From Flavobacterium indicum GPTSA100-9 = DSM 17447 (lineage in GTDB: Bacteria > Bacteroidota > Bacteroidia > Flavobacteriales > Flavobacteriaceae), in the NCBI RefSeq assembly GCF_000455605.1, contig NC_017025.1:2356001-2420000 (forward strand): 64,000 bases of DNA, read 5' to 3'. This document shows positions 3,463 through 37,800 of this stretch, one piece after another. Below the pieces are notes generated by a model that saw only the letters and a program-made list of their open reading frames with translations, was not told where the DNA came from and did not search any database. Positions within the stretch are counted from its first letter, which is position 1, and each line of letters starts with the position of its first letter. A program made the position numbers and the translations under genes.

Positions 3463-3482
3463 AATACGTAAAAATTCGTATT
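3463..3482. promoter_or_regulatory. Palindromic site AATACG-N8-CGTATT, copy 1
   Basis: AATACG (3463-3468) and CGTATT (3477-3482) form a perfect inverted repeat with 8 bases between. Its centre is 60.5 bp before the ATG of the secreted protein gene. Two further copies with the same spacing occur at 8129-8148 and 11642-11663. It overlaps the last base of the regulator gene stop codon. A weak -7 box (AATATTTG on the minus strand, 3418-3425) follows. Confidence 0.6.
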
Positions 3483-4129
3483 TAGATTAGTTTATTATTT
3501 TTAGCTTTTTGAATGGCTTCTAGTTTGTTATGAACTTGAAGTTTCGTATAAATATTTTCTACATGTTTTCTAATGGTTCCAACAGATAAGAATAAATTAT
3601 CAGCTATTGCATTGTATTTTAACCCCTTACTTAATTGCTCTAGCACTTCTATTTCTCTTGTTGATAATTGGATATTTTCACAAGGTTCTTGACTTTCAAA
3701 AGAAACTGGTTCTCTTAATAATTTAAGCGTTTTTAAAGCAATTGACGGAGTCATAGCAGCTCCACCGTTTAAGGTTTCTATAATACCATTGTATAATTCT
3801 TGAGGATTGACTTCTTTTAAAAAATAGCCATCTGCACCAGCTTTAATTGACTTAAAAATATTTTCATCATTATCAATTACGGTCAACATAATAATTTTGA
3901 TCTGCGGATATTTTGCTTTTACTTTTTCTGTTGCTTCAATACCATTCATTTTTGGCATATCAATATCCATTAAAATTAAATCAACATTATGATTTTTATC
4001 TAATTTTGCTAATAAATCTAACCCTTCAACCGCTTTAAATTTTACTTCTATAGCATCAAAAAAAGACAATTTATCCTGAATGGCTTTCTGTAAAAAAGTG
4101 TTATCATCAACTATGGCAATTTTAATCAT
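3482..4129 (-). CDS. LuxR-type (NarL/FixJ) response regulator
   Basis: This 215-residue protein has a receiver domain (about 1-120) with the acidic pair D8-D9, the phospho-acceptor D55 in LILMDIDMPKMNG, and the conserved lysine in GYFLKEV. The C-terminal LuxR-type helix-turn-helix covers about 152-210 (LSTREIEVLEQLSKGL, then SVGTIRKHVENIYTKL). Its ATG overlaps the end of the kinase gene at 4122-5888 by 8 bp, so translation is probably coupled and the kinase is its likely partner. It is the last gene of a four-gene operon. NarL-type regulators bind as dimers to inverted repeats, and three similar palindromes lie nearby (3463, 8129, 11642). That it binds them is inference. Confidence 0.93.
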   Translation of the reverse strand: MIKIAIVDDNTFLQKAIQDKLSFFDAIEVKFKAVEGLDLLAKLDKNHNVDLILMDIDMPKMNGIEATEKVKAKYPQIKIIMLTVIDNDENIFKSIKAGADGYFLKEVNPQELYNGIIETLNGGAAMTPSIALKTLKLLREPVSFESQEPCENIQLSTREIEVLEQLSKGLKYNAIADNLFLSVGTIRKHVENIYTKLQVHNKLEAIQKAKNNKLI

Positions 4130-5888
4130 AATCTTCTATTTTTAAAATTATTAAAATTTCTGTTCCTCTATTTTCTGCCGAGTTAATTTGCAATGCTCCA
4201 CCAATATCTTCAATACGTTTTTTCATATTATGCAATCCATTTCCTAGTTCAATTTCATCAAGATTAAATCCTATTCCATTGTCCTTAATTTGAATTTTTA
4301 ATTTTGATTCTGTTGTTTTAACGTCAACTGAAATTTCCGAACAATGCGCATATTTAACAGCATTATTAATAGCTTCTTGAATGGTTCTATAAATATTAAT
4401 TCCTACTAAGGAAGAAAACTTAAATTGTTTTGTACTCTCTTCCATTGAGAATTTAAATTGAATTTCTTCTTTTGTAGATTTGGCTTTGTCAATAAAATTA
4501 TAAATACGACCTCTCAAATCTTCAAATGAAAATTCATTAGCATTCATTGCCCAAACAGTGTCTCGCAATTCTACGATGGTCATTTTTGTAAAATCACTTA
4601 TCGCAAGCAAACGATTTTGTACTTTTTGTTCTATCGATGGAAAACCAAATTTTAAATTATCAACCGATGAAATTATAAAGGTCAATTGTGCACCAATATT
4701 ATCATGTAAATCTCTTGAAATAGCCAAACGCTGTTCGTGCAATTTATTTTGAGTTTCAATTTCAGCAATAGCATTTTTGAGTTCAAACTCTTGTTGTTGT
4801 TGTTTTAATTTTAATTTTTGTTGACGATAAATAAAAAATGCTAGTAGTAAAACCAATCCAATCAAACTAAAAGAAACAATTAGTTTCATTCTAGAGTCTT
4901 GAACTTCAATTTCTTTTTCAAGTAATAATTTTTCTTTTTCTTTTGTTTCAAATTTTACTTCTAATTCTGCAATTTTATCATTACTTTCTTTATTTAAAAT
5001 ACTGTCTTTAAATTGAATATGCTTTTTATAATTTAAAAATGCTTCAGTAGAATTATTCAATTTCTCAAAACATTGAGAAAGCATTAAATAACCATGTCTT
5101 TGTAAATTATTGAAACCGTATTTATCTGCAATGGCAACCGAAGATTTAAAATTTTTTATAGCCAATTCGTATTTTCCTTCTGCTAGATACAAATCGCCAA
5201 AATAGGCATAACTATCACTTATACCATAATAATCATTCAATTCTAACCTCAGTTTAAATGCCTGGTGAATTAATTCTTTTGCTTCTTTAAATTTTCTTTG
5301 TTCAATTTTAATTTCAGCTATATTATTTAAGCTATAAGGAATACCAGCTTTGTCTTTAATTTGTTGTTTTAATTGCAAACATTTTTTAAAATATAACAAG
5401 GCACTGTCAATTTGTTTTTCATTTTTCTTTAATGTACCGTAGTTGTTATATATAGATAACAAAGGTTGAATATGATGATTACTTTTCGAAATTTTCATTC
5501 CTTTTTGCATGTAATACAAGCCTTTTACAGGATGTCTTTTACTCATTCTAAAACCTAATTCTCCGTATTCTCTAGCTAAAAACTCGGTATGCTTTAGTTT
5601 TTCAAATAACTTAATTGCTTGTAAACTGTATTTTATGTTTTCATCAAAATTTCCATTAAAATAATAACACCAGCTTAAATCACTATAACACAAAGCCTCA
5701 CGTAAATTGAGATTTTTTTCTTTACATTTTTTGGCATTTTGAAGTAAAATTGGAATAAGCGTGTTTTTTTCCTTTTGTTTTGTAGCAAAAGGCAGTTTAT
5801 AAATGGAATCAATAAATGCAACACTTTGAGAAAAAGTGTTATTTTTCCAAAGTACAAATAAAAGTATAAATAACCATTTATTCTTCAT
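4122..5888 (-). CDS. TPR-containing sensor histidine kinase (HisKA_3 type)
   Basis: This 588-residue protein has an N-terminal export signal (about 1-21), TPR-like helical repeats at about 70-300 that should lie in the periplasm, a coiled coil at about 300-330, and one membrane helix at about 335-354. A dimerisation/phosphotransfer helix follows with the phospho-accepting H395 in ISRDLHDNIGAQ, the signature of NarX/DesK-type kinases that pair with LuxR-type regulators. The HATPase domain has N-box NNAVKYA and DNGIGF. The gene overlaps the upstream kinase by 11 bp and the downstream regulator by 8 bp. It is a paralogue of 5878-7773: the catalytic half is nearly the same, while the TPR half differs, so the two probably sense different signals. 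Confidence 0.92.
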   Translation of the reverse strand: MKNKWLFILLFVLWKNNTFSQSVAFIDSIYKLPFATKQKEKNTLIPILLQNAKKCKEKNLNLREALCYSDLSWCYYFNGNFDENIKYSLQAIKLFEKLKHTEFLAREYGELGFRMSKRHPVKGLYYMQKGMKISKSNHHIQPLLSIYNNYGTLKKNEKQIDSALLYFKKCLQLKQQIKDKAGIPYSLNNIAEIKIEQRKFKEAKELIHQAFKLRLELNDYYGISDSYAYFGDLYLAEGKYELAIKNFKSSVAIADKYGFNNLQRHGYLMLSQCFEKLNNSTEAFLNYKKHIQFKDSILNKESNDKIAELEVKFETKEKEKLLLEKEIEVQDSRMKLIVSFSLIGLVLLLAFFIYRQQKLKLKQQQQEFELKNAIAEIETQNKLHEQRLAISRDLHDNIGAQLTFIISSVDNLKFGFPSIEQKVQNRLLAISDFTKMTIVELRDTVWAMNANEFSFEDLRGRIYNFIDKAKSTKEEIQFKFSMEESTKQFKFSSLVGINIYRTIQEAINNAVKYAHCSEISVDVKTTESKLKIQIKDNGIGFNLDEIELGNGLHNMKKRIEDIGGALQINSAENRGTEILIILKIEDYD

Positions 5889-7773
5889 TTTTCAAATGAA
5901 TTTGTATTGTTGTTCCATTCCCTAATGTTGAATGCAAACTATAATTTCCTCCTATTTCTTCTATTCTTTTTTGCATATTTATTAAGCCGTTGCCCAACTC
6001 TACTTGATCTAAATTAAATCCTATTCCGTTGTCTTTAATTTCAATGGAAATGAAATCCTTAAATTCTTTTACTTCCACTGCAATTTCATCGGCATTTGCA
6101 TATTTAATAGCATTATTAATCCCTTCCTGAATAGTTCTATACAAATTGATACCAACCAAAGATGAAAATTTTTTTTGAATTAAATGTTCTGGAATAATAA
6201 ATGAAAACTGAATATTTTCTTTAACCGATTTTGCTTTCTCAATAAAATTATAAATTCTAGAACTTAAATTTGAAAATGAAATTTGATTTACATTCATAGC
6301 CCATATTGTGTCTCTTAGCTCTACAATTGTCATTTGAGTAAAATTGCTAATCACACTTAATCGGCTTGATATTCTTTGTTCTAAATTTGGAAATCCAAAT
6401 TTTAAATTATCAATTGAAGAAATAATAAAAGTTAATTGTGCCCCAATATTATCATGCAAATCTCTAGAAATAGCCAAACGCTGTTCATGCAATTTATTTT
6501 GTAATTCAATTTCTGCTATGGCATTTTTTAATTCAAATTCTTGTTTTTGTTGAGTGTTTTTTAATTTTTGTTGTCTGTAAATTAAAAACCCAATAATTAT
6601 ACTAAATAAAGCAAACAAGGATATTCCATACAATAAGATTGTTTTTTGCCCATGTGCTATTTCTTCTTCAATTAATTTATTTTTAGCCAATAACAATGCT
6701 TTGGCTTTTTTTTCATTTTCATACTTGGCTTCAACTTCTGCTATGGCTTGAGCCGATTCAATTTTATAAACCGAATCTCTTAACTTGATATAATTATCTT
6801 GATCTTTAATAGTTTCTGAAAGATTATTTCTTTTTTTACTAAATTGTAATTTTTGAAAATAGTAGTCTCTTAATTTTTCTGCATTATTGGATTTTCTTGA
6901 AAAAAATTCAGCCTGTTTAAATAATTTTTCAGCTCTTTCAATTTCATTTAATTCAGAAGCAATAGTGGCTAAATTAGTATAGTGTGTAGCTTGTTCATAA
7001 TAATAACTTTCGTCTTTACTTTCTCGTGCATTGTATTCAACAATTTTAACTGCTCTATTTATCCATTTTTCTGCTTCAACATATTTCTTTTGTTTTAATA
7101 AAGTATTCCCAATATTGTTATAAGTACTAGAAATTGTCAATGTATCTTTTCCCTTGATATAATTAAACACCATTTTATGGTAATGTAACGCTTCATTAGG
7201 CTTATTCCAATCATCGTAATTAATGGCAATGGCATTTAGTGTTGAATACAAAGAAGCAATGTCTGGATTTTTTTTCCCTAAATGATATTTTAATGCTTTT
7301 TTTCCATGCAAAACACCTAGTTGATAATTTTCAAAATCATGATAATTAAGCGACAATGTATTATTGAAAAAAGCAATCCAATTCTCTTTTTTTTCATGTT
7401 CAGCCAATCGTAATCCTTCAAACACTATTTTAATAGCTTCATCGTATTTACCTCTTTTGTTATAAACCTTTGAAAGATTATTATAAACCGTAAATAGGCT
7501 ATTGAAATTATTTACTTTTTTTAGCTTATCTATTGCTATTTTCCCATAATAAACGGCACTATCTGAAGAACCATAATCCACATGACGGGCATTTTTACAA
7601 AAATAAAATTCCCCTTCGTCTGCTGGTGTTTTAATTATTTTTTTTGCTACTTGAAAATAATAATCTGAAGAATCCGAAGAAGTATAGGCCTTAATTAAGA
7701 TTTTTTTCAAATCCTGAGACCAACTATTTGTAACGAGTAATAGGAATACAAGTAGAAGTGTGTGTTTTTGCAT
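5878..7773 (-). CDS. TPR-containing sensor histidine kinase, paralogue
   Basis: This 631-residue protein has a signal peptide (about 1-20, ending NSWSQ), TPR repeats at about 90-300, a coiled coil with EVEAKYENEKKAKALL at about 345-375, one membrane helix at about 379-398 and the phospho-accepting H440 in ISRDLHDNIGAQ. The HATPase domain carries NNAIKYA and DNGIGF. It is arranged like its downstream neighbour (4122-5888) and the two share long identical stretches around the phospho-histidine, so they arose by tandem duplication. Both precede a single regulator gene, so they may converge on one output or form heterodimers. Confidence 0.92.
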   Translation of the reverse strand: MQKHTLLLVFLLLVTNSWSQDLKKILIKAYTSSDSSDYYFQVAKKIIKTPADEGEFYFCKNARHVDYGSSDSAVYYGKIAIDKLKKVNNFNSLFTVYNNLSKVYNKRGKYDEAIKIVFEGLRLAEHEKKENWIAFFNNTLSLNYHDFENYQLGVLHGKKALKYHLGKKNPDIASLYSTLNAIAINYDDWNKPNEALHYHKMVFNYIKGKDTLTISSTYNNIGNTLLKQKKYVEAEKWINRAVKIVEYNARESKDESYYYEQATHYTNLATIASELNEIERAEKLFKQAEFFSRKSNNAEKLRDYYFQKLQFSKKRNNLSETIKDQDNYIKLRDSVYKIESAQAIAEVEAKYENEKKAKALLLAKNKLIEEEIAHGQKTILLYGISLFALFSIIIGFLIYRQQKLKNTQQKQEFELKNAIAEIELQNKLHEQRLAISRDLHDNIGAQLTFIISSIDNLKFGFPNLEQRISSRLSVISNFTQMTIVELRDTIWAMNVNQISFSNLSSRIYNFIEKAKSVKENIQFSFIIPEHLIQKKFSSLVGINLYRTIQEGINNAIKYANADEIAVEVKEFKDFISIEIKDNGIGFNLDQVELGNGLINMQKRIEEIGGNYSLHSTLGNGTTIQIHLKNEE

Positions 7774-27674: not shown

Positions 27675-28557
27675 ATTTCTGATTGTATCCAAATCGTTTC
27701 AATTGATAGGCACTATTTCGCCAATCTTTATTTATTTTCACAAAAAGTTCTATATGAATTTTTTTGGCAAAAAACTGCTCTAAATCTTCCCTTGCTTGCA
27801 TTCCCACTTTTTTCAAAGCCGCTCCTTTATGTCCAATAATGATTCCTTTTTGTGTTTCACGCTCTACCATAATAACCGATTTAATTCGGATAATGTTCTC
27901 TTCTTCTTTAAACTCTTCTGTTTCCACTTCACATGAATAGGGAATTTCTTTATCGTAATTCAAAAGGATTTTTTCTCGTATCGTTTCATTCACAAAAAAA
28001 CGCTCCGTTTTATCAGTTAATTGATCTTTAGGATAAAAAGGTGGCGATTCGGGAAGTAACTCTTTAATTCTATTGTAAACCGTTTCTACATTAAAATTTT
28101 CCAAAGCAGAAATAGGATAAATTTCAGCATTAGGAACTTTTTCTTTCCATAATTGCACTTGTTCTTCTAATAATTCTTGGTTGGATTTATCAATTTTATT
28201 TAAAAGCAATAAAACTGGAACTTTTGCATGAATTATTTTAGTAAAAAAAGCCTCATCTTTTAATTCCTTTTCGCCTACTTCAACCATATAAATTAATATG
28301 TCAGCATCAGTAAAGGCTGTTTTTACAAAATCCATCATCGAAGATTGCAACTCATAAGCCGGTTTGATGATTCCTGGTGTATCTGAAAATACAATTTGAT
28401 AATCCTCCTCGTTTACAATTCCAAAAATTCGGTGACGTGTAGTTTGTGCTTTACTTGTAATAATAGACAAACGTTCGCCTACCATGGCATTCATTAACGT
28501 TGACTTTCCAACATTTGGGTTACCAATTATATTTACAAAACCTGCTTTGTGTGACAT
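27673..28557 (-). CDS. era: GTPase Era
   Basis: Started at ATG 28555-28557 (294 residues): the alternative TTG at 28575 lies inside the -7 box. The N-terminal G domain has GNPNVGKSTLMNA, DTPGI and NKID. The C-terminal KH domain has VERETQKGIIIGHKGAALKKVG, then FVKINKDWRN. Era binds 16S rRNA and takes part in 30S maturation. Single-gene unit. Confidence 0.97.
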   Translation of the reverse strand: MSHKAGFVNIIGNPNVGKSTLMNAMVGERLSIITSKAQTTRHRIFGIVNEEDYQIVFSDTPGIIKPAYELQSSMMDFVKTAFTDADILIYMVEVGEKELKDEAFFTKIIHAKVPVLLLLNKIDKSNQELLEEQVQLWKEKVPNAEIYPISALENFNVETVYNRIKELLPESPPFYPKDQLTDKTERFFVNETIREKILLNYDKEIPYSCEVETEEFKEEENIIRIKSVIMVERETQKGIIIGHKGAALKKVGMQAREDLEQFFAKKIHIELFVKINKDWRNSAYQLKRFGYNQK

Positions 28558-28572
28558 AAAATTTATTTTTTG

Positions 28573-28580
28573 CAAAGGTA
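28573..28580 (-). promoter_or_regulatory. Promoter -7 box of era
   Basis: TACCTTTG on the minus strand, an exact TAnnTTTG match, 15 bp before the ATG. It decides the start codon of era. Confidence 0.7.
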
Positions 28581-28614
28581 AGGAATGAAAATCATTAAAT
28601 CTTTTCTAAAAAAA

Positions 28615-29286
28615 CTAAATTAATTTTAAATTCTTTGCCGTCTGAATCAAAGCTTCATCGCTAGCTTTATTACCAGTTAATTCTCTTTTCAAAAATGCTT
28701 TTCTTTTTTCAATAGCACTTAAAGACAAATCAATATAATTAGGAAGGTCTTTTGTTTTTTTACCTTCTGCCAAACACATTATTATTTTAATATCAAATTC
28801 ATCTAAAGATAAATTAGATTTTAAATAATCTTGAATTACCTGAACAATTGTGGGACTTTTATAAATATCTCCTTCAATAACACTTTTCATTATTTTAGGA
28901 AATGTGTTAAAATTAATATCATTTTTAGAAATAAAGCACTCGGGATTAATCGTTTTAAACACATTATTAATTAAAAGCGTTTCCTTATGCATAGTTAACA
29001 TTGCTAATTTACAATTAGGAAACAACTGCCTGATTAATTTCGCTACACCTGACCCATCCATTATTTTCTCTTTTTCATAAGGCGGTAAGTTATAATCTAC
29101 AATTGCAAAATTTAAATCCTCATTAGACTTTTTTAGCATATGCAACATTTTAAAAGCTTCCTCACAATTAAAGGTCTTTCTAAAAACGGGGTTATCGACT
29201 ACTTTATTCAAAGTCAATAAACTCTGATAACCATCAACTGTCATTGGATGGTCATCTACTATTAAAATGTTGTAATTTGAAGTCAT
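28615..29286 (-). CDS. Response regulator with atypical C-terminal domain
   Basis: This 223-residue protein has a receiver domain with acidic residues D11-D12 and the phospho-acceptor D64 (AIVDYNLPP). The C-terminal half (about 155-223) looks like a shortened or diverged LuxR-type helix-turn-helix: DEFDIKIIMCLAEGKKTKDL, then LSLSAIEKRKAFLKREL. It shares the ending and this pattern with the regulator at 36595-37260, so the two are paralogues. It is divergent from a LytTR gene with 82 bp between. Its kinase is probably the TPR kinase at 30603-32609. Confidence 0.88.
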   Translation of the reverse strand: MTSNYNILIVDDHPMTVDGYQSLLTLNKVVDNPVFRKTFNCEEAFKMLHMLKKSNEDLNFAIVDYNLPPYEKEKIMDGSGVAKLIRQLFPNCKLAMLTMHKETLLINNVFKTINPECFISKNDINFNTFPKIMKSVIEGDIYKSPTIVQVIQDYLKSNLSLDEFDIKIIMCLAEGKKTKDLPNYIDLSLSAIEKRKAFLKRELTGNKASDEALIQTAKNLKLI

Positions 29287-29368
29287 ATATAAACCGTAAT
29301 TCTTTATAAAATAAACCGTATTTAAATTCTGAAATGATAAGTAACTTGCATCAAAATTAAACTTTTCT

Positions 29369-30064
29369 GTGCAATACTCCTACATCATAATAGATTCAGA
29401 AAATAAAGTTATAGAAAAAAAAGAATTTTTAAACTCTTTTAACGAATTATTGTGCTTAGGAATTTACAATGATTATGATGCTGCTTTTAATGCTATTTTA
29501 GAAAGAAAGCCCGATTTAATTTTTTTCAATTTTAACGAAGATATTCCAATTTCATTATTGTCAGAATTATTAAATTACAGCGACAACACTCCTTATGTAA
29601 TTGGCATTAATGCGGAAGAAAGAGCGGCTTATCAAGCAATTAAACATAACATTTCAGATTTTATGTTGTTTCCTTTAAAAGAAGCAGAAATTAGAAAGTG
29701 TATTTTAAAATTTTTAAAAGCAACAAAAAAAAAGAAATTAGAAAAAATATGCGTTAAAACGAGTGGCGATTACAATTTCATTAATTTAAGCGATATCTTA
29801 TTTGTCAAAGCCGATAACAACACTACTGATTTTTACTTAAATACGGGCAAAATTATTACCGGATTTAAGACCATGAAACATTATGAAAGTGCATTACCTT
29901 TCTATTTTTTCAGAATTCACAATAGCTACATTGTCAATATCAATCATATTAGTCGAATCAATGTGAGCAAATCAAGTGTCTTTTTAAACAATGACCATCA
30001 AATCCCTTATTCAAGATCACATAAAGACACTATTGACATCATTATTGATAAAATTGAAAATTAA
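29369..30064 (+). CDS. LytTR-type DNA-binding protein with degenerate receiver
   Basis: This 231-residue protein starts at GTG 29369; no ATG is available nearby in frame. The N-terminal half (about 1-120) folds like a receiver, but the expected phospho-acceptor Asp is Asn (N54 in LIFFNFNEDIP). The C-terminal half (about 130-228) is a LytTR domain (KTSGDYNFINLSDILFVKADNNTTDFYL, then FFRIHNSYIVNINHISRI). It should bind DNA without classical phosphorylation control. The palindrome 30126-30169 lies just downstream, at the promoter of the lipoprotein gene, and is a reasonable target. Confidence 0.88.
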   Translation: MQYSYIIIDSENKVIEKKEFLNSFNELLCLGIYNDYDAAFNAILERKPDLIFFNFNEDIPISLLSELLNYSDNTPYVIGINAEERAAYQAIKHNISDFMLFPLKEAEIRKCILKFLKATKKKKLEKICVKTSGDYNFINLSDILFVKADNNTTDFYLNTGKIITGFKTMKHYESALPFYFFRIHNSYIVNINHISRINVSKSSVFLNNDHQIPYSRSHKDTIDIIIDKIEN

Positions 30065-30125
30065 TTTTTTTTTCAATCACTTTCAATTTAATACCAACTA
30101 CTAGTACAGAACCACCAATTACTAT

Positions 30126-30172
30126 ATCTAGCTAAAAAACAGTACTTTACAAATAGTATTTAGCTAGATTTG
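30126..30172 (+). promoter_or_regulatory. 11-bp palindrome overlapping a -7 box
   Basis: ATCTAGCTAAA (30126-30136) is perfectly repeated in inverted form at 30159-30169 around a 22-base centre. The right arm overlaps the -7 box TAGATTTG (30165-30172). Transcription would start near 30179 and give a leader of about 145 bases before the lipoprotein ATG. The arrangement suits a repressor or a DNA loop; I infer a binding site for the regulator encoded just upstream. Confidence 0.6.
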
Positions 30173-30324
30173 CATAGTACAAAAATAACAATGAAGCTTC
30201 ATAATCGTTTGTAAAAGGGAAAATTACAAACCAATTTTCGAAACAACAATCCCTGGTTGTCTCGAATCAATTTCTTATCAAATAAGAAAAAATGTAATTA
30301 ATCAATTTCTAAAAAAACAAAATT

Positions 30325-30576
30325 ATGAAAACTAAATTAGCATTTATCGCACTTATCAGTGTAACAGTATTTTCTTGTTCAACTGATGACTTACAAGTTG
30401 AAAATCCAACTTTTACAAAAAATAACTTGAAAATTAATTCAATTTCAGAAACTGAAAATATGTCTAACACAATGAGAGAAGATGATTCAGTTAATAAAAA
30501 TCAGGATACAACATTTGTAATTCCAGATCCAATTCCTGTAATTGGCGATCCGCTTAAGCCTAAAGGAAAAGATTAA
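30325..30576 (+). CDS. Small exported lipoprotein, set 1
   Basis: This 83-residue protein has a lipoprotein signal peptide with lipobox TVFSC (Cys at residue 18), followed by STDD. The mature part is polar and disordered in character and ends with a Pro/Lys tail (VIPDPIPVIGDPLKPKGKD). No known domain is visible. It lies 26 bp before a TPR sensor kinase that is itself lipoprotein-like. A similar small lipoprotein precedes another TPR kinase at 34686, so I infer a functional link. Family unknown. Confidence 0.8.
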   Translation: MKTKLAFIALISVTVFSCSTDDLQVENPTFTKNNLKINSISETENMSNTMREDDSVNKNQDTTFVIPDPIPVIGDPLKPKGKD

Positions 30577-30602
30577 TTTTATATATTTGAATAAAAAAAC
30601 TA

Positions 30603-32609
30603 TTGAATAAGTTATATTTTATTTTAGGACTAGTGATATTTCTTTTTTCATGCGAAAAAAAGGAAAGTGAATATGATTTTAGTAAAAATAATATACTAGA
30701 AGATTACAACTATAAAAAGTTATCTAAAACAAAAAAGGAAAAGTATTTAGATTCAATTTTTAAAAATATATCAACAAAAAATGATTCTATTAAAATTAAT
30801 TTATTATTCAATATTGCTTCAGAATATTATTTTTTAGATTTAAATAAAAAATATTTAAAAGTATCCAGAGATATTTTAAAATTAGCAATACAAAAAAAAG
30901 ATTCTTTCTCAATTGGACGTGCTTATTATTATATTGGTGATGCTTATGAATTTAAAAAAAATGACAGTGCTTATTTTTATTATAAAGAATCAGAAAATAT
31001 TTACAGAAAAACAAAAGATTTAGGTAGACTTGCTAAAGTGTATTATAATAAGGCCCATTTATTATATTATGAAAGCAATTTCATTGAAAGCGAAAAACAA
31101 GTTTCAAAAGCTTTAGTATGTCTTATAAATTCAAATAACTATGAATTATTATACATGTGTCATGCCTTGCAATTCGGAAATTTATTAGAATTGGAAGATT
31201 ATGAAAATGCATATAGTTATTATAAAAAAGCGAAAATTTATCTTGACAAACAAAAACAGAAAAATGCCAATTATTCAAATTTTGAAAATTATTCAACATT
31301 ACTTGCAAATGATTTAGCAACTTGGTATGTAAAACAAAAAAAATACAATGAAGCCGTATACACTTTAAACAAAATTGTCAATGAAAACTTAAGAAAAAAA
31401 AATCCTTATTTATATGCTGTTTTGTTAAATAATCATTCGACAAACAAGATGAAAGCAAATATTTTAAAGGATGTTGAAAAAGAAAAGCATTATTCTCTTA
31501 AATATTTTACTGATAATAATTTAGAGAAAAATAATGTCTATGTTTTTAGTGATTTAGCTGATTATTATCTAATTAAAAAAGATACCGCTAAGGCAGTAAA
31601 TTTTTTATATCAAACTCAAAAGTTAGCGTATAAATATGAAATTGGACAAGAAATCTTAAAATCTTTAAATACATTATCTAAAATAGATATAAAAAACAAA
31701 GATTATTATAAAGATAAATATTTACAAACCAATGATAGTATTTCGAAAAAACAAAGAATAAGTAAAGAAACATTTTCGAGAATTGAATACGAAACATCCA
31801 AAGTTGAAAATGAGAATAAGGTATTAACCAAGAAGAATTTATTTTTATTAATTAGTTCAATAGGTATAGGATTTATTTTGTTATCAATAATTTTTTACAA
31901 ACAAATTAAGGCTCAAAAAAGAGAATTCATTTTACTAGAAGAAAAGAAAAAAGCTGAAAAAGAAATTTATCAACTATTTCAAGATCAACAAATAGAAATG
32001 CTTCGTATGCGAGAAAGAGAACAAAACAGAATCGCAAAAGAATTACACGACGGTGTTATGAATCAAATTTATGGTGTACGCTTAAATCTAGGAATGCTAA
32101 ATGGATTTGATGAAGAGGAGATAAAGGAAAAAAGATTGTATTATATTGAAATGTTGCAAAAAATAGAGGGCGAAATTAGAGAGATTTCACATGATTTACA
32201 TGGCGAAAATAAATTTGAAGAAATTGATTTCAAAAGTATATTGGAAGAATTAACGCATTCACAAAATAATTTATCCAGAACAATATTTGAAAGCGAAATT
32301 GACCCAACCATTTCTTGGGATGCTATTTCTAGTATTATAAAAATCAACATCTACAGAATTGCGCAAGAATTATTTCAAAATACGCTTAAATATGCTAACG
32401 CAGCAAAATGCACTTTTAAAATAACACAATCGGAAAATGAATTACTAATTGAAGTAAAAGATGATGGTGTTGGATTTAATTCAGATGAAGCAAAAAACGG
32501 AATTGGATATAAGAACATCCGGGAAAGAATTGGAACTATAAATGGAACTATTAAATTAAACTCTGAAATAAATAAAGGAACAGAAGTAACAATAAAAGTA
32601 TTAATTTAA
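30603..32609 (+). CDS. Lipoprotein-type TPR sensor histidine kinase, set 1
   Basis: This 668-residue protein must start at TTG 30603, as an in-frame stop lies at 30588 and no ATG follows that keeps the signal peptide. The N-terminus is a lipobox (FLFSC, Cys 17). TPR repeats fill about 60-390, one membrane helix is at about 413-432, a coiled coil follows, and the phospho-accepting H482 is in RIAKELHDGVMNQIYG. The HATPase domain has NTLKYANA and DDGVGF. The lipid anchor on a sensor kinase with a second membrane helix is unusual. Its partner is probably the regulator at 28615-29286. It overlaps the end of the next gene (minus strand) by 4 bp. Confidence 0.88.
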   Translation: MNKLYFILGLVIFLFSCEKKESEYDFSKNNILEDYNYKKLSKTKKEKYLDSIFKNISTKNDSIKINLLFNIASEYYFLDLNKKYLKVSRDILKLAIQKKDSFSIGRAYYYIGDAYEFKKNDSAYFYYKESENIYRKTKDLGRLAKVYYNKAHLLYYESNFIESEKQVSKALVCLINSNNYELLYMCHALQFGNLLELEDYENAYSYYKKAKIYLDKQKQKNANYSNFENYSTLLANDLATWYVKQKKYNEAVYTLNKIVNENLRKKNPYLYAVLLNNHSTNKMKANILKDVEKEKHYSLKYFTDNNLEKNNVYVFSDLADYYLIKKDTAKAVNFLYQTQKLAYKYEIGQEILKSLNTLSKIDIKNKDYYKDKYLQTNDSISKKQRISKETFSRIEYETSKVENENKVLTKKNLFLLISSIGIGFILLSIIFYKQIKAQKREFILLEEKKKAEKEIYQLFQDQQIEMLRMREREQNRIAKELHDGVMNQIYGVRLNLGMLNGFDEEEIKEKRLYYIEMLQKIEGEIREISHDLHGENKFEEIDFKSILEELTHSQNNLSRTIFESEIDPTISWDAISSIIKINIYRIAQELFQNTLKYANAAKCTFKITQSENELLIEVKDDGVGFNSDEAKNGIGYKNIRERIGTINGTIKLNSEINKGTEVTIKVLI

Positions 32610-32875
32610 TCATATTTTTTCAACCATTCCCAGGCTGCTTTTTTTACCCATCCTTGTTTCATTTGATGGGTAACCTCTGAGATAAAAAACTGGTCTGGAT
32701 TATTAGTTACTTTTTTTATTTTCTCATTCCATTGTTCAATAGATTCTTCTGTTTTTACTAGCCAAACAGAACCAAAGAGTCTGTAATAAGAATTGGCAGA
32801 TTTTAACACGTTGAAAAGTGAATCATAATCTGATTTAACATTTAAAATATCATATGTAATAATAAATACTGACAT
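32606..32875 (-). CDS. Cas2/VapD-like small protein
   Basis: This 89-residue protein begins MSVFIITYDILN and contains YRLFGSVWLVKTEESIEQW and FFISEVTHQMKQGW, a pattern shared by small ferredoxin-fold proteins related to Cas2 and VapD (often labelled SinR-like in databases). No other cas gene and no CRISPR array is near, so this is a stand-alone relative, possibly a toxin-type RNase or a DNA-binding protein. It is convergent with the kinase gene. Confidence 0.65.
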   Translation of the reverse strand: MSVFIITYDILNVKSDYDSLFNVLKSANSYYRLFGSVWLVKTEESIEQWNEKIKKVTNNPDQFFISEVTHQMKQGWVKKAAWEWLKKYD

Positions 32876-33079
32876 AAATAATTTAAAAAATCCAAAACCA
32901 TAATCTACAATAAAACCCCAATTTTATTCTTAAATTATTTTATTAATACTAAATAAAAAAATTACTACCCCTAATTTTTTCAAAAAAACCCAAAAAATTA
33001 AAATAACTTTTTGATTATGATTTTGGATACTGCTAAATTAGGTATTCGTAACAAGAACATATTACGGTTTTTTAAATTA

Positions 33080-33379
33080 TTATTTACGGTTTAATTTTAT
33101 TTTACAATATTGTTTTTTTGTATTTAAATAAAACAAGCACCACTTTAACGAAATAAAAAATATAACTGATGAAAACAAAGAAATAAAAATTGTTTTTGTT
33201 ATAAAAATTATAGTATCAAAATGCTTTTCTCCGTTAAAAATAAAGAAATAGGAATTTAATAGTAAAAATGAAAGAAGTAAAATTGAAAAAAAAAATAAAA
33301 TAAATAAATCATCTAATACATTCCATTTTATTCCATTTTTATAATTAAATGTTAACTCTCTAAAAAAATAAATATTAAA
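33080..33379 (-). pseudogene. Probable remnant of a membrane protein gene
   Basis: A reading frame of 99 codons ends at a TAA (33080-33082) and has no in-frame ATG, GTG or TTG near its beginning. The translation reads like the end of a real protein: NIYFFRELTFNYKNG, then KWNVLDDLF, two long hydrophobic helices, NGEKHFDT and a basic tail (KIKLNRK). AT-rich DNA favours such hydrophobic frames by chance, so confidence is limited. Confidence 0.3.
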
Positions 33380-33400
33380 TTATCAATTTTGATTTTTAAG

Positions 33401-33433
33401 AATAAGTCATTTTAAAAAAATGGCTTATTTTTT
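33401..33433 (+). terminator. Terminator-like hairpin without an obvious gene
   Basis: AATAAGTCATTTT (33401-33413) pairs with 33417-33429 (one G.T pair) and is followed by a T-run on the plus strand. No plus-strand gene ends before it; it may be what is left of a lost gene. Confidence 0.5.
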
Positions 33434-33503
33434 ATACAACTATTTTGATGAAAGATGCAGACTGAATAAGTTTTTACTTTTTAATCCAAAAATATATTTC
33501 TTA

Positions 33504-34358
33504 CTAATTAACGCGTTTTACATATTTATTCACAATATATTCACTCACAGGCTTTAATGCCTTTCCTGTTTCAGGATGTACACCATGAGTATTAAAAAAT
33601 TCGGGCTTTCCTTCCACTTTACAATACCATAACACCGCCTTTCCATTTTTAAAAAAAGTAGTGGTATCCGAAACCTCTATTTTAAGTAATTGACTTTGAT
33701 GCTCATCGAATGGGATGCTTTCATTACGGTACAATAATCCCTGTTGTTCATTTTCATTGGTACAATCCACAACCTCATAATGATTTTTTTGCCACTGCAT
33801 ACATTGTGGTTCAGGTGCCAGTAATGTTTTTGCTGTAAAACCTATAGAAGTTAATCCAATTAAACCTAAAAATCCAATAGCAATTTTCTTCCTTATTTGT
33901 GCTGTAGGTAGTGGTTTTTGAGGCGCTTCTACTTCAAGTATTTCTAATCCCATATTAGATTTACTAGTTGCTATTTTATCTTCTTTTTCCAAATTAATAT
34001 CTGAAACTAAAAACAGACTAAATGGACGATATTCATAATTAACCAATATTGCTATTAGATTTAATGAATTTTGACTAGTTGATTGAGATTTTCCATTCAA
34101 AAAATTACAAATCTTTTTTAGTTTTTCTACATCAATAGTTTCAATAGCTTTTCTTAATTGAATATCGGGCTTTGTTTTAAAAAACAATTCAAAAACTTCT
34201 TGATCTTTTTTACACAGTCCTTTATCATGAAGAATCAAGCATAAATCTCGCAATTGAGCAGGAGAAGGTTTTAGTAGAAAACCAGAATAAACCTTACTTT
34301 TTTCAACTTCATATTTGCTTCTTACGGCAAGAATGTAATCATCAAATGTTTTAGCCAT
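33504..34358 (-). CDS. Membrane protein of unknown function
   Basis: I choose the ATG at 34356-34358 (284 residues); another in-frame ATG lies at 34374-34376. About 1-150 is a helical cytoplasmic domain (MAKTFDDYILAVRSKYEVEKSKVYSGFLL, then LRDLCLILHDKGLCKKDQEVFELFF), with one membrane helix at about 163-182 and a C-terminal extracytoplasmic part holding the two-Cys segment PQCMQWQKNHYEVVDC. I do not recognise a named family. It is divergent from the second lipoprotein/kinase set and could be linked to it. Confidence 0.7.
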   Translation of the reverse strand: MAKTFDDYILAVRSKYEVEKSKVYSGFLLKPSPAQLRDLCLILHDKGLCKKDQEVFELFFKTKPDIQLRKAIETIDVEKLKKICNFLNGKSQSTSQNSLNLIAILVNYEYRPFSLFLVSDINLEKEDKIATSKSNMGLEILEVEAPQKPLPTAQIRKKIAIGFLGLIGLTSIGFTAKTLLAPEPQCMQWQKNHYEVVDCTNENEQQGLLYRNESIPFDEHQSQLLKIEVSDTTTFFKNGKAVLWYCKVEGKPEFFNTHGVHPETGKALKPVSEYIVNKYVKRVN

Positions 34359-34376
34359 AACGGAATTTTTAAGCAT

Positions 34377-34685
34377 TTATCAGTATTCTTTGGAATTACC
34401 AGAATTATCGGAATTCCTTATAAACACTCACACAAAAACGCAATTCCTTTGATTCAGAATCAGTTCTTGTTTTAACTAGCTATTGAAACAAATGTACAAA
34501 ACTGATTTCAAAAAAGTGTTGCTATACAGAACCGAATTTTTATTCGGGAAGTATAAAATGAACGTTCTGTAGTGGCACACTTTCACTTCCCAAATACAAA
34601 AAAGGCCGGAGTTTCTCAACTCTAAAAACCGACTTCGGAATAATTCCGAACAGCCAAAATTATGTTCAATTTAAATTTTAAAAAA
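34377..34685. other. Intergenic region with repeats and hairpins before lipoprotein set 2
   Basis: No gene is seen. It holds three 9-bp direct repeats (GGAATTACC, AGAATTATC, GGAATTCCT at 34392-34418) and, before the lipoprotein ATG, hairpins CCGAAT-TTTT-ATTCGG (34532-34547), GAGTT-TCTC-AACTC (about 34610-34623) and TTCGGAA-TAA-TTCCGAA (34634-34650). If transcribed they would form a structured leader. No exact TAnnTTTG box was found. Confidence 0.5.
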
Positions 34686-34892
34686 ATGAAAAAATATGTA
34701 TTCATCGCTTTCGTAGCATTAAGTAGTTTTGCCATTTCATGTACAACTGATAAGGATTTCCCAACTTCTAACTCCAACGCAAAAATTCAAAAATTGGATA
34801 ATACCTTATTGCAAAAAGAGGGCGACACCATTGCAGAAGGTGATACAGGTGGTCAAGGAGGTTCCACACCAATAAAACCCCCTAAACCATAA
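34686..34892 (+). CDS. Small exported lipoprotein, set 2
   Basis: Started at ATG 34686 (68 residues) to give a lipoprotein signal peptide with lipobox FAISC (Cys at about 19), followed by TTDKD. The mature part is polar, with EGDTIAEGDTGGQGG and a proline-lysine end (STPIKPPKP). It matches the lipoprotein of set 1 (30325-30576) in size, in the S-C-(S/T)-T-D start after the lipobox and in the Pro/Lys tail, but not in the middle. It precedes a TPR kinase by 52 bp. Confidence 0.8.
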   Translation: MKKYVFIAFVALSSFAISCTTDKDFPTSNSNAKIQKLDNTLLQKEGDTIAEGDTGGQGGSTPIKPPKP

Positions 34893-34944
34893 TTCATAAT
34901 TTATTCTATTTTACATTTTGAAATAGATTTCTTAATTTCGGGAA

Positions 34945-36591
34945 ATGATACTAAAAAAAGTACTTTTCCCGATTTTAATTTGTATGCTCTTATTTTCATG
35001 TGATACAGACATTTTATCACAAAAAAAATACGATGAATATACTAGCAAAGGAAATGATTTATTTAAAAAAAATCAGTTTGATTCAGCCTATGTGTATTTT
35101 GAAAAATCTAAGTCTTATTCTTCTAAAGTAAACAATGAAAACACAATCATTTATCCTCTATTAATGCTTTCAGAAATTCAAAGATTAAAAAATGATTATC
35201 ATGGATGTGAAGAGAATTTAACTGAGGCTTTAAAATACGTTACAGCAACTACAGACAGAAGTTATTTAATATTTATGTATAACAACTTCGCTTTATCCTA
35301 CTCAGAATTAGCGGATTATAAAGAGGCCTTAAAATATTACAATTTAAGTCACAAATTAGCCACCACTTTAAAAGCTAAATTAATTATTCAAAATAACATT
35401 GCTTATAACTACTTAAAGCAAAATAAATTTACGGAAGCCAAAAAAGTATTAAGCGCTATAAAGGATAATGACTCCCTTAAAAACGACACGATTACCTACG
35501 CCCGAGTTTTAGACAATTTGGGATATACTCAATTTAAATTAAACGAATCGAATGGTATAAAAAATTTATTTGAAGCTCAACGCATTAGAAAAAAAAGTAA
35601 AGATGAAATTGGACTAACTGCTACCTCCATGCATTTAGCAGAATATTACAGTCAATCTAACAAGGATACTGCAAAAGCATATGCAATTCAAGCATTAAAA
35701 TTCGCATCAAAAATTAAAAACCCTGATGATAAAATTGAGGCATTACAATTTTTAACCAAATTATCAGATGGTAAAAATGCCAAAGACTATGCTCTACAAA
35801 CTTTCACATTAACTGATAGCTTAGTGAAAGCAAGAAAAGTTGCTAAAAATCAATTTGCAAAAATAAAATACGATTCCAAACAAGCACTTAACGAACTTGA
35901 AAAACAAAAGCGTCACAAAGAATTTTTAATTTTAGGAATTATTTCCCTTTTTGGAATTGGATTATTTGCTTATTACAAAATCAAGAAAAGAAACCACAAA
36001 AAAATTAGAGAAACAGCTTATCAAACAGAAACTCGAATTGCAAAAAAACTGCATGACGAATTAGCAAATGATGTCCACAATACTATTGCTTTTGCTGAAA
36101 CACAAGATTTATTAAATCCTAAAAACAAAGATACTTTATTAGAAAACTTAGAAACTATTTACAACCGAACAAGAAATATATCTAACGAAAATAAAGACAT
36201 TGACACCGGCGAATTATATCTTGAAAAATTAAAAGCCCTACTTGCGTCATATAATTCGGCCGATCGAAACGTCATTGTAAATGTAGCTGCTTTTCATCAA
36301 ATAAAAACGTCTAAAGAAGTAAAAATTGTAGTGTATCGAGTATTGCAAGAATTAATGGTTAACATGAAAAAACACAGCCAATGTACCATAGCGAGTATTA
36401 CTTTTACAACGAGCAATAAACAGTTACAAATTAACTATTCTGATAACGGAATTGGTACGGATAACTTAATAAATTTAAAAAATGGTCTTCAAAATGCGGA
36501 AAACCGTATTCTTTCTATTAATGGAACACTTACTTTTGACACAGCACTTAATAAAGGGTTTAAAGTTAAAATTCAGATTCCAAAACCATAA
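34945..36591 (+). CDS. Lipoprotein-type TPR sensor histidine kinase, set 2
   Basis: This 548-residue protein has a lipobox (MLLFSC, Cys 19), TPR repeats in about 30-300, one membrane helix at about 326-345, and a diverged phosphotransfer helix with H370 in RIAKKLHDELANDVHNT. The HATPase domain has ELMVNMKKHS and DNGIGT. It shares the architecture of 30603-32609 and, less closely, that of the kinases at 4122 and 5878, which carry ordinary signal peptides. Its regulator follows after 3 bp, so this is a clear kinase-regulator pair. Confidence 0.9.
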   Translation: MILKKVLFPILICMLLFSCDTDILSQKKYDEYTSKGNDLFKKNQFDSAYVYFEKSKSYSSKVNNENTIIYPLLMLSEIQRLKNDYHGCEENLTEALKYVTATTDRSYLIFMYNNFALSYSELADYKEALKYYNLSHKLATTLKAKLIIQNNIAYNYLKQNKFTEAKKVLSAIKDNDSLKNDTITYARVLDNLGYTQFKLNESNGIKNLFEAQRIRKKSKDEIGLTATSMHLAEYYSQSNKDTAKAYAIQALKFASKIKNPDDKIEALQFLTKLSDGKNAKDYALQTFTLTDSLVKARKVAKNQFAKIKYDSKQALNELEKQKRHKEFLILGIISLFGIGLFAYYKIKKRNHKKIRETAYQTETRIAKKLHDELANDVHNTIAFAETQDLLNPKNKDTLLENLETIYNRTRNISNENKDIDTGELYLEKLKALLASYNSADRNVIVNVAAFHQIKTSKEVKIVVYRVLQELMVNMKKHSQCTIASITFTTSNKQLQINYSDNGIGTDNLINLKNGLQNAENRILSINGTLTFDTALNKGFKVKIQIPKP

Positions 36592-36594
36592 CCT

Positions 36595-37260
36595 ATGTTT
36601 AAAAAAGTTTTAATAGCAGAAGATTTCGACAGTATTAATATTGCTGTAAAGCAAACTCTAGAATCACTGGGCGTAGAAGAGATTCAATACGCAAAATATT
36701 GTGATGATGCATTATTAAAATTTAAAAAAGCCATACAAGATAATGCCCCTTTCGATTTACTAATTTGCGATTTATCTTTTGTTGCTGATTATAGAAAAGT
36801 GGAAATACCTTCAGGTGAAAAACTCATTGAAGTGATTAGAACCTTGCAGTCTGAACTCAACATAATTGTTTATTCCGTTGAAGATAAAGCCTATACAATA
36901 AAAACACTTTTCAATACACACAAGATAAATGCCTATGTACACAAAGGACGCAATAGTATTAGCCAACTTAAAACAGCTATTGAAACCTTACTTTATGGCA
37001 AAACATTTATTTCTCCCGAATTAGCACACACTTTACAAGACAAAACAGGCAAAGAAATTGACAATTACGACATTACTTTACTAACGCACCTTGCCAACGG
37101 TGTGGCTATTGAAGACATGGAAGGGTTATTTAAAAAATTAAATATTACTCCAAATAGCAAAAGCACTATTGAAAAACGTGTAGCTAAACTCAAAGATTAC
37201 TTCAAAGCGAGTAACAACATTCACTTAATAGCTATTGCCAAAGATTTAGGCATCATCTAA
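36595..37260 (+). CDS. Response regulator with atypical C-terminal domain
   Basis: This 221-residue protein has a receiver domain with E9-D10 and the phospho-acceptor D59 (LLICDLSF), and a C-terminal domain (about 155-221) of the same type as in 28615-29286: NYDITLLTHLANGVAIEDM, then TIEKRVAKLKDYF and a last segment IAKDLGII. I take it for a diverged LuxR-like DNA-binding domain. It is 3 bp behind the kinase gene and is its partner. Confidence 0.88.
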   Translation: MFKKVLIAEDFDSINIAVKQTLESLGVEEIQYAKYCDDALLKFKKAIQDNAPFDLLICDLSFVADYRKVEIPSGEKLIEVIRTLQSELNIIVYSVEDKAYTIKTLFNTHKINAYVHKGRNSISQLKTAIETLLYGKTFISPELAHTLQDKTGKEIDNYDITLLTHLANGVAIEDMEGLFKKLNITPNSKSTIEKRVAKLKDYFKASNNIHLIAIAKDLGII

Positions 37261-37294
37261 TTTTTTCACTATTAAATTAAAAAAAACAATCACT

Positions 37295-37339
37295 TTACGG
37301 ATTCCCGTAAGGAATACATTTTTATTGGGTTTAAGTTTG
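37295..37339 (+). promoter_or_regulatory. Palindrome TTACGG-N4-CCGTAA with -7 box, copy 1
   Basis: TTACGG (37295-37300) and CCGTAA (37305-37310) are centred exactly 29.5 bp before the first base of the -7 box TAAGTTTG (37332-37339). The second copy (41135-41180) has the same geometry. No TTG -33 box is present, so the site sits where an activator would replace it. It controls the gene at 37369. Confidence 0.65.
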
Positions 37340-37368
37340 GAAAACAAATTTTAAATGAAAAAATAACT

Positions 37369-37800
37369 ATGGAAACTAACCAAAAAAAAATGTCACTGGG
37401 TAAAAAAGTATTAATAGGCTTTGGAGTATTAATCTTCATAGGATTTTTATCGAATTTGAGTAAAGATGAAAAGAAAGAGCATTTAAAATCATCAAGTGAA
37501 TCAACAACTACAATTCCTAATAATGAAATTCCAGAAGTTGAAATATTAAAACATAATGCAACTTTTGAAGAAAGAATGAATACATATACAATACATTGTA
37601 GAGTTAAGAACAATACTGATAATTTAATTGATTATTTAGATATTAAAGCTACGTTTTATGATAAAGACCGAAATATTGTTGGAACAGGTTTTGGTAATGC
37701 TGCAAATCTTGCAGGTGGCGCAGAAAAAACTATTGATGTAATAGGATTGGATATTCAAAATTGTGAAAAGTATGAAGTTCAAATCGATAATTTATTTTAA
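37369..37800 (+). CDS. FxLYD-domain-like membrane protein
   Basis: This 143-residue protein has one N-terminal membrane helix (about 14-27, VLIGFGVLIFIGF), a short polar linker and an extracytoplasmic beta-domain with NTDNLIDYLDIKATFYDKDRNIVGTGF, the pattern of FxLYD domains. The function is unknown. It precedes the nuclease gene by 3 bp and is probably co-transcribed with it. Confidence 0.75.
   Translation: METNQKKMSLGKKVLIGFGVLIFIGFLSNLSKDEKKEHLKSSSESTTTIPNNEIPEVEILKHNATFEERMNTYTIHCRVKNNTDNLIDYLDIKATFYDKDRNIVGTGFGNAANLAGGAEKTIDVIGLDIQNCEKYEVQIDNLF

Follow-up and report, generated by a model that had tools for sequence, protein, structure and literature searches.

Short secreted products are encoded next to tetratricopeptide repeat (TPR) receptors in the RRNPP systems (Rap, PrgX, PlcR), whose receptors are cytoplasmic and are not kinases. 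The FimS-like TPR histidine kinases of Bacteroidota combine TPRs, a HisKA_3-type kinase and a LuxR-type regulator, the same layout as at the locus described here; we know of no small lipoprotein partner of these enzymes, and to our knowledge no ligand is known for TPR sensor kinases of this type. NlpE and RcsF are larger proteins and are not operon partners of a TPR kinase; NlpE–CpxA and RcsF–Rcs are cases in which an outer-membrane lipoprotein reports the state of the envelope to a two-component system. Two reports describe QseG as an outer-membrane lipoprotein, encoded in the operon of its kinase QseE, that binds QseE, acts on its periplasmic part and activates it (PMC12691602, PMC6075780), so that in QseG–QseE–QseF of Pseudomonadota lipoprotein, histidine kinase and regulator share one operon. 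A 64,000-nucleotide stretch of Flavobacterium indicum GPTSA100-9 = DSM 17447 (the window; positions 2,356,001–2,420,000 of a single-contig 2.99-Mb genome) carries two gene sets, set 1 and set 2 (Table 1), in which, judged from gene order, a lipoprotein gene likewise lies in the operon of a kinase. Each set is best explained as a three-component signalling operon that occurs in many genera of the Flavobacteriaceae. Typically, a short lipobox protein is followed by a histidine kinase with TPRs and a transmembrane (TM) segment, lipobox-bearing in Flavobacterium, and usually by a NarL-type regulator; set-2-type operons are mostly preceded by a structured leader, located about 100 nucleotides before the lipoprotein start codon. 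The operon differs from QseG–QseE–QseF in its phylum, in its lipoprotein, mostly of 50–90 aa with a proline tail, and in having a TPR-domain sensor, a NarL/RcsB-type regulator and a pseudoknot leader. Membership in the RRNPP group, with its cytoplasmic TPR receptor and re-imported peptide, was rejected, as the TPR region here lies between a lipobox and a TM segment and is fused to a kinase. We lean, with moderate confidence, towards the view that the lipoprotein may be a dedicated ligand of the TPR kinase, comparable to QseG or NlpE, under control of the leader RNA. In full-text searches of the openly accessible literature, judged from titles and the openings of abstracts, no account was found of a small lipoprotein associated with TPR kinases in Bacteroidota or of the leader, and the operon apparently constitutes an undescribed form of lipoprotein-assisted two-component signalling.

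That the lipoprotein gene goes with the TPR kinase gene is confirmed, and the association is both conserved and almost exclusive. With a profile built from 15 kinases, 80 named set-2 loci (the best 80 of 551 relatives, 74 of them titled Flavobacterium) were retrieved with flanks of up to 10 kb, in which 88 set-2-type kinases separate clearly from the other open reading frames (ORFs; lowest kinase score 569, next 68). A short lipobox ORF ending at most 300 bp upstream precedes 64 of the 88 kinases versus 35 of 724 other long ORFs from the same loci, and most of these 35 cases look spurious by eye. The enrichment anticipated by an earlier annotation made from the letters alone (the sequence-only reading), which had proposed a genome search for short lipoproteins upstream of TPR kinases, is thus present. 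The gap between the two genes is mostly about 50 bp. Scored by eye, a small lipoprotein directly precedes the kinase at 23 of the 28 best loci found in other genera (the tails TEGDDGDPPPPPP and CCGEDGELPPPPPPP are examples), and one lies upstream of the kinase at 19 of 30 set-1 loci. Conversely, a lipoprotein profile built on alignment A7 (44 of 66 lipoproteins) was searched through 101 genomes of the genus. Among the matches listed (to about E 1e-5), 89 reach the tail (model position at least 53); 77 of the 79 with a short frame (≤170 aa) lie at most 2 kb upstream of a kinase, the reference being a subset of the kinases matched in the genus, one is found at a contig end and one elsewhere, and the 10 further matches are the starts of long ORFs. 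Since the profile was trained on kinase-adjacent proteins, it may favour kinase-adjacent matches. The sequence-only reading would have regarded the association as accidental if such lipoproteins were equally frequent near unrelated genes or if the tail were not conserved among homologues; neither is the case, for the listed matches lie beside kinases and the proline-rich tail is retained. A chance neighbourhood is therefore ruled out by the enrichment within the loci, the recurrence in other genera and the adjacency among the matches listed. Searches of NCBIfam and Pfam returned no family above cut-off for either lipoprotein of the window.

As had been noted from the letters, the two window lipoproteins share only the signal region and a Pro/Lys tail. 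Across the family, a variable middle is followed by an acidic/glycine- and proline-rich C-terminal tail. Selection on this tail is evident at locus L212, where six copies of a 57-aa lipoprotein stand in a row directly upstream of the kinase: over the last ten residues (TDPIIIPKKD), 55 synonymous and 0 nonsynonymous codon differences are counted, summed over 15 copy pairs that are not independent, versus 38 synonymous and 118 nonsynonymous differences (likewise copy-pair sums) in the signal peptides. These counts argue against the possibility, which we hold to be most improbable, that the short ORF serves chiefly as a regulatory leader, coupling translation to the kinase, as do the signal peptide and lipobox, which are mostly retained, and a unit that exists without a kinase (L234, see below), even though the short gap to the kinase and the long structured leader would suit such a role. 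With respect to sorting, two or more acidic residues at positions +3 to +6 are found in 47 of 64 small lipoproteins versus 9 of 70 kinases (those of the 88 that match the lipobox pattern used), and basic residues are almost absent from these positions in the lipoproteins. The surface-export consensus of F. johnsoniae lipoproteins is SDDFE (PMC5080379); the small lipoproteins carry, by sequence, the corresponding export signature of polar and then acidic residues at +2 to +6. We infer that they are probably sent to the outer membrane, perhaps to its surface, and that the kinase is not.

Both window kinases open with a lipobox (..LFSC), followed by TPRs, a TM segment and a HisKA_3/HATPase core. 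In kinase 1, HATPase_c and HisKA_3 exceed the Pfam cut-offs and the best TPR match falls below its own; in kinase 2, TPR_12 is above cut-off, and HATPase_c (23.0 vs 26.4) and HisKA_3 (14.6 vs 24) are below. Residues H370, D371, N473, D500, G502, and G504 are invariant in 15 of 15 aligned kinases of the kinase 2 family. By these features both sets possess the phosphoacceptor histidine box and HATPase domain of two-component systems. The kinases are widespread: a match to kinase 2 at E ≤ 1e-10 was obtained in 91 of the 101 genus genomes, frequently more than one, and in some cases in tandem (set-1-like kinases are among the weaker matches), and to kinase 1 at E ≤ 1e-20 in 90. The closest kinase 2 matches among named genomes belong to Flavobacterium difficile, F. 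bernardetii, and F. cucumis. In a family-wide sample the kinase profile matched 103 of 199 genomes (102 of 198 genera) at E ≤ 1e-60; in a class-wide sample matches were rare (9 of 198 at E ≤ 1e-50, 6 of these within the family). Several kinases from other genera begin with an ordinary signal peptide rather than a lipobox. A plasmid-borne element was ruled out, no match to kinase 2 at E ≤ 1e-20 being found in 72,556 plasmid records. Elsewhere in the window (3482–7773), a NarL-type regulator accompanies a tandem pair of TPR kinases; the signal peptides of this pair have no lipobox and, by eye, no small lipoprotein adjoins it.

Covariation of lipoprotein and TPR sequences had been put forward as a check. 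In the 51 of 64 operons that have a regulator, the mature lipoprotein correlates with the TPR domain (rho 0.666), the kinase core (0.514), and the regulator (0.405); the partial correlation is 0.507 with the TPR domain versus 0.071 with the kinase core, and 0 of 500 permutations reach 0.507. Control values are 0.310 and 0.220 for the signal peptide and 0.033 and 0.147 for the two parts of a divergently transcribed neighbouring protein. The check is positive overall and weaker within kinase clades, where the partial correlation falls to 0.356 (26 operons, 0/500) and 0.186 (25 operons, 16/500), with signal-peptide controls of 0.311 and 0.350, about equal to or above the lipoprotein values. Much of the covariation therefore lies between clades; it is counted as weak support, and was dropped as proof of binding after the within-clade test.

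Further observations weigh, like this one, against a ligand role. Automatic scoring leaves 24 of the 88 set-2-type kinases without an upstream lipoprotein; 16 of these show none by eye (one, L050, lies at a contig edge, and some adjoin a gene that we take to encode ribosomal protein L20). Such kinases may act alone. No lipoprotein was detected either at 11 of the 30 set-1 loci or at 5 of the 28 belonging to other genera, and none of three kinases found beyond the family has a convincing one upstream. Conversely, L234 (G111:C26, ~1475–1819) comprises a leader and a small lipoprotein with no adjoining kinase, the next long ORF being on the opposite strand. Of 106 further lipobox ORFs, 41 likewise hold two or more acidic residues at +3 to +6. 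Close orthologues constrain the tail only partly, with a nonsynonymous-to-synonymous ratio of 1.05 (41 set-2 pairs, 28 sequences) as against 0.42 for the signal, 0.84 for residues +2 to +6, and 2.82 for the middle; taken together with the invariant array tail, this indicates a tail under selection that nevertheless varies between lineages. As for the remaining automatic misses, inspection by eye revealed an intact lipoprotein masked by a longer frame in L102, only a tail remnant in L073, L074, L089, and L103, and, in L067, L070, and L115, loss of the lipobox cysteine with retention of signal and tail, a pattern that speaks for the ligand reading. Of the ligand–receptor pair suggested by the sequence-only reading, the gene link therefore stands, and a ligand–receptor relation, though presumptive, is the best reading.

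Alternatively, the lipoprotein might share a transcript with the kinase and serve as an output or a structural partner that the kinase does not sense. This would account for the weak within-clade covariation and the many kinases without a lipoprotein; given the near-exclusive adjacency to kinases of both subfamilies in many genera, we consider it unlikely. We prefer the dedicated-ligand reading, in which the lipoprotein would be exported to the outer membrane, its residues +2 to +6 resembling the F. johnsoniae surface-export signal, and its disordered tail would serve as ligand of the periplasmic TPR superhelix, binding in the TPR groove, most likely at a stage when the lipoprotein has not yet left the periplasm or hangs into it. 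Tail binding would switch the kinase and hence the regulator, in the way that QseE responds to QseG, and CpxA to NlpE. The state of the kinase would then follow the amount or place of the lipoprotein, and the leader RNA would set how much of the lipoprotein (and operon) is made.

A different role for the tail is conceivable, namely that of a lipopeptide pheromone displayed or shed by the cell and sensed by TPR kinases, whether its own or those of other cells, with paralogous sets as separate channels. The multi-copy array at L212 with its invariant tail, the surface-type sorting signal, the lone unit at L234, and the presence within one genome of paralogous operons that differ in tail would all fit; in L080, L086, L099, L109, L116, and L119 (F. 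johnsoniae strain CI04), two lipoprotein–kinase pairs with differing tails occur within about 10 kb. A third regulator of the family beside peptide-maturation genes (see below) points the same way. However, the TPR region is predicted to be periplasmic (lipobox before, TM segment after), so that a foreign ligand would have to cross the outer membrane, and outside the module no neighbour family of at least 100 aa occurs in more than 32 of 80 loci, so that no gene for processing or uptake accompanies it. We accordingly give the pheromone little credence.

The set-2 lipoprotein is preceded by an element that the earlier delimitation of set 2 had missed, together with a divergent gene that also belongs to the set; every ORF coordinate given there was recovered. 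A 45–49-bp element, GGGAAGT..ACTTCCC, was found by pattern search in 62 of 65 set-2 leaders. GGGAAGT lies in the loop of a hairpin (S1) and is paired by ACTTCCC just 3′ of the hairpin (S2), giving a predicted H-type pseudoknot. A scan for this form detected 61 of the 65 leaders versus 1 of 130 shuffles. In an alignment-free arm-swap test, in which relatedness among elements was not removed, S1 formed from its own arms reaches a mean of −19.7 kcal/mol versus −13.0 for swapped arms (60 distinct elements; 0 of 10,000 permutations). On alignment A3 (21 of 62 elements), 11 of 19 S1 pairs have changed on both sides, with a covariation of 0.211 versus 0.110 in shuffled alignments (0/500) and at most 0.075 in slid controls. 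RNAalifold applied to the first alignment, A2 (48 of 62 elements), recovered only S2 and no covariation; S1 was missed because its arms were misaligned there. The invariance of S2 within Flavobacterium is partly due to selection, as the elements were picked by the GGGAAGT..ACTTCCC pattern. In other genera S2 varies (GGGAAGT, GAGAAGT, AAGAAGT, AGGAAGT, GGAAAGT, each with its complement, with one mismatch in L210), and the element ends 97–110 nucleotides before the lipoprotein start codon. A combined anchor, flank and S1 test was passed by 16 of 23 leaders from other genera versus 1 of 460 shuffles; the anchor required the three outer S2 pairs to match, so that pairing was selected there and variation was not. 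Alignments A10 and A11 (eight sequences each) comprise 15 of the 16 passing elements (L211 omitted) and L195, which had failed the combined test; both stems show double-sided pair changes in them (S2 at 3 of 7 and 2 of 7 pairs), and the covariation score was reached by 0 of 500 shuffles. One of five measures, that of further pair types, is not clearly above shuffles (41/500 and 153/500). A combined cross-genus alignment, A9, has a ragged 3′ end and was excluded from the counts.

The near invariance of GGGAAGT..ACTTCCC within Flavobacterium might instead suggest that the element works at the DNA level, its nested inverted repeats forming an operator to which the regulator binds; we judge this very improbable, since both stems covary across genera, a hairpin with a crossing helix suits RNA, and G–U exceed A–C pair cells on the coding strand (44 vs 19, beside 777 Watson–Crick and 48 other cells). 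Nor would an operator be expected from its distribution: at E ≤ 0.1, the window leader is the sole match of model R1 in its own genome. Within the genus, R1 found 54 sites in 38 of 101 genomes, with a kinase at most 700 bp downstream at 53; the 54th (G099:C65) lies 403 bp from a contig end. Model R2 yielded 22 sites, spread over 21 of the 199 family genomes; comparing positions by eye, 21 of the sites have a kinase less than 1 kb downstream, and one precedes the lone lipoprotein of L234. Set-1 leaders resemble the element in part: a stricter pseudoknot test was passed by 5 of 18 set-1 leaders (of 19 lipoprotein-bearing set-1 loci, L176 being omitted) versus 0 of 90 shuffles, and by 6 of 23 leaders from other genera. 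Although the element resembles the structured leaders of Rfam in being a riboswitch-like pseudoknot in cis, Rfam 15 covariance models gave 0 matches at E ≤ 1 in window positions 28000–37500 and, in 11 other loci, 3 weak matches, all to families of eukaryotic RNA and none reaching the gathering score; a known family was thus ruled out for the stretches searched. The leader appears to be a new structured-RNA family.

Flavobacteria widely carry TPR kinases of this type, often in several copies, and a candidate operon-encoded ligand is now at hand; its short, defined tail opens the ligand question to direct test by synthetic peptide. The leader contributes a further structured RNA family, one whose client gene is known, and the operon offers a possible handle on how Bacteroidota couple lipoprotein export to gene expression. 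Beyond this, a family-wide lipopeptide–TPR signalling language, with many paralogous channels, dosage raised by arrays and a pseudoknot riboregulator that perhaps senses a molecule or protein, is a rather doubtful extension.

The regulators of the two sets are only 25% identical. Regulator 1 scores 31.7 bits as a receiver (REC) and regulator 2 27.5 bits, below the 30.2 cut-off; D59 is invariant across 16 regulators, and the regulator profile matches RcsB over positions 3–194 of 221 (E 8.6e-9). By these matches the regulators consist of a receiver with a phosphoacceptor aspartate and a NarL/LuxR-type output domain. The C-terminal domain, earlier called unusual, is divergent and yet not new: the profile matches place it in an ordinary NarL/RcsB-type family that has drifted far. 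The regulator is kept in 73 of 80 set-2 loci, about 1.7 kb past the kinase start, and the divergent protein of about 300 aa in 63; only these two neighbours are widely kept. A LytTR homologue occurs in 20 of 30 set-1 loci. For the window copy of the divergent protein, no Pfam family and no PDB match at E ≤ 1 were found; it has 922 relatives, the best 120 of which, where named, are “hypothetical” or “uncharacterized”.

Table 1. Features of the two gene sets, in window coordinates
Feature	Position	Strand	Support
Set-1 response regulator	28615..29286	−	
Set-1 LytTR regulator	29369..30064	+	PF04397, E 3.7e-18
Perfect 11-bp inverted repeat ATCTAGCTAAA..TTTAGCTAGAT	30126..30169	+	
Set-1 leader, pseudoknot-like: hairpin 30207–30231, loop AGGGA pairs with TCCCT 30250–30254	30205..30254	+	
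Set-1 small lipoprotein, 83 aa, tail GDPLKPKGKD	30325..30576	+	lipoprotein hidden Markov model (HMM), E 2.3e-10 (training row)
Set-1 lipobox + TPR + TM histidine kinase, 668 aa, TTG start	30603..32609	+	
Product of the divergent gene, 290 aa, with a single TM segment (by eye) and a C-terminal domain CMQW..DHYE.VDC	33504..34376	−	
Set-2 leader element, predicted H-type pseudoknot RNA	34510..34591	+	R1 match, 95.4 bits (training row)
Set-2 leader stems: S1 arms; S2 GGGAAGT with ACTTCCC	S1 ~34514–34532 and 34564–34582; S2 34546–34552 and 34585–34591		
Putative second set-2 leader hairpin TTCGGAATAATTCCGAA	34634..34650	+	alignment
Set-2 small lipoprotein, 68 aa, tail GGQGGSTPIKPPKP	34686..34892	+	lipoprotein HMM, 9.5e-18 (training row)
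Set-2 lipobox + TPR + TM histidine kinase, 548 aa	34945..36591	+	
Set-2 response regulator, receiver + divergent NarL/RcsB-type output domain	36595..37260	+	

At the place of the second leader hairpin, relatives carry other self-complementary letters by eye. Relatives of the divergent protein are short (205–226 aa) in L080, L086, L095, L099, L101, and L116, and those of 209 aa in L213 and L215 stop after the TM segment. The third regulator of the family (L010:1182–7697; ~1,689–1,696 kb of the same genome) lies beside grasp-with-spasm peptide maturases (TIGR04192, E 1.9e-97; TIGR04193, E 5.1e-99); an ABC exporter similar to those that export peptides and a lipobox protein of 310 aa are also present. 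Palindromes like TTACGGAnnnTCCGTAA are present upstream of set-1 lipoproteins in L161, L162, L165, L167, and L173 and are possible regulator operators; ACCGTA half-sites are found between the regulator 1 and LytTR genes (window ~29293–29332). Between the two sets, an 89-aa ORF (32606–32875, − strand) resembles Cas2 weakly, at E 0.009 and below cut-off.

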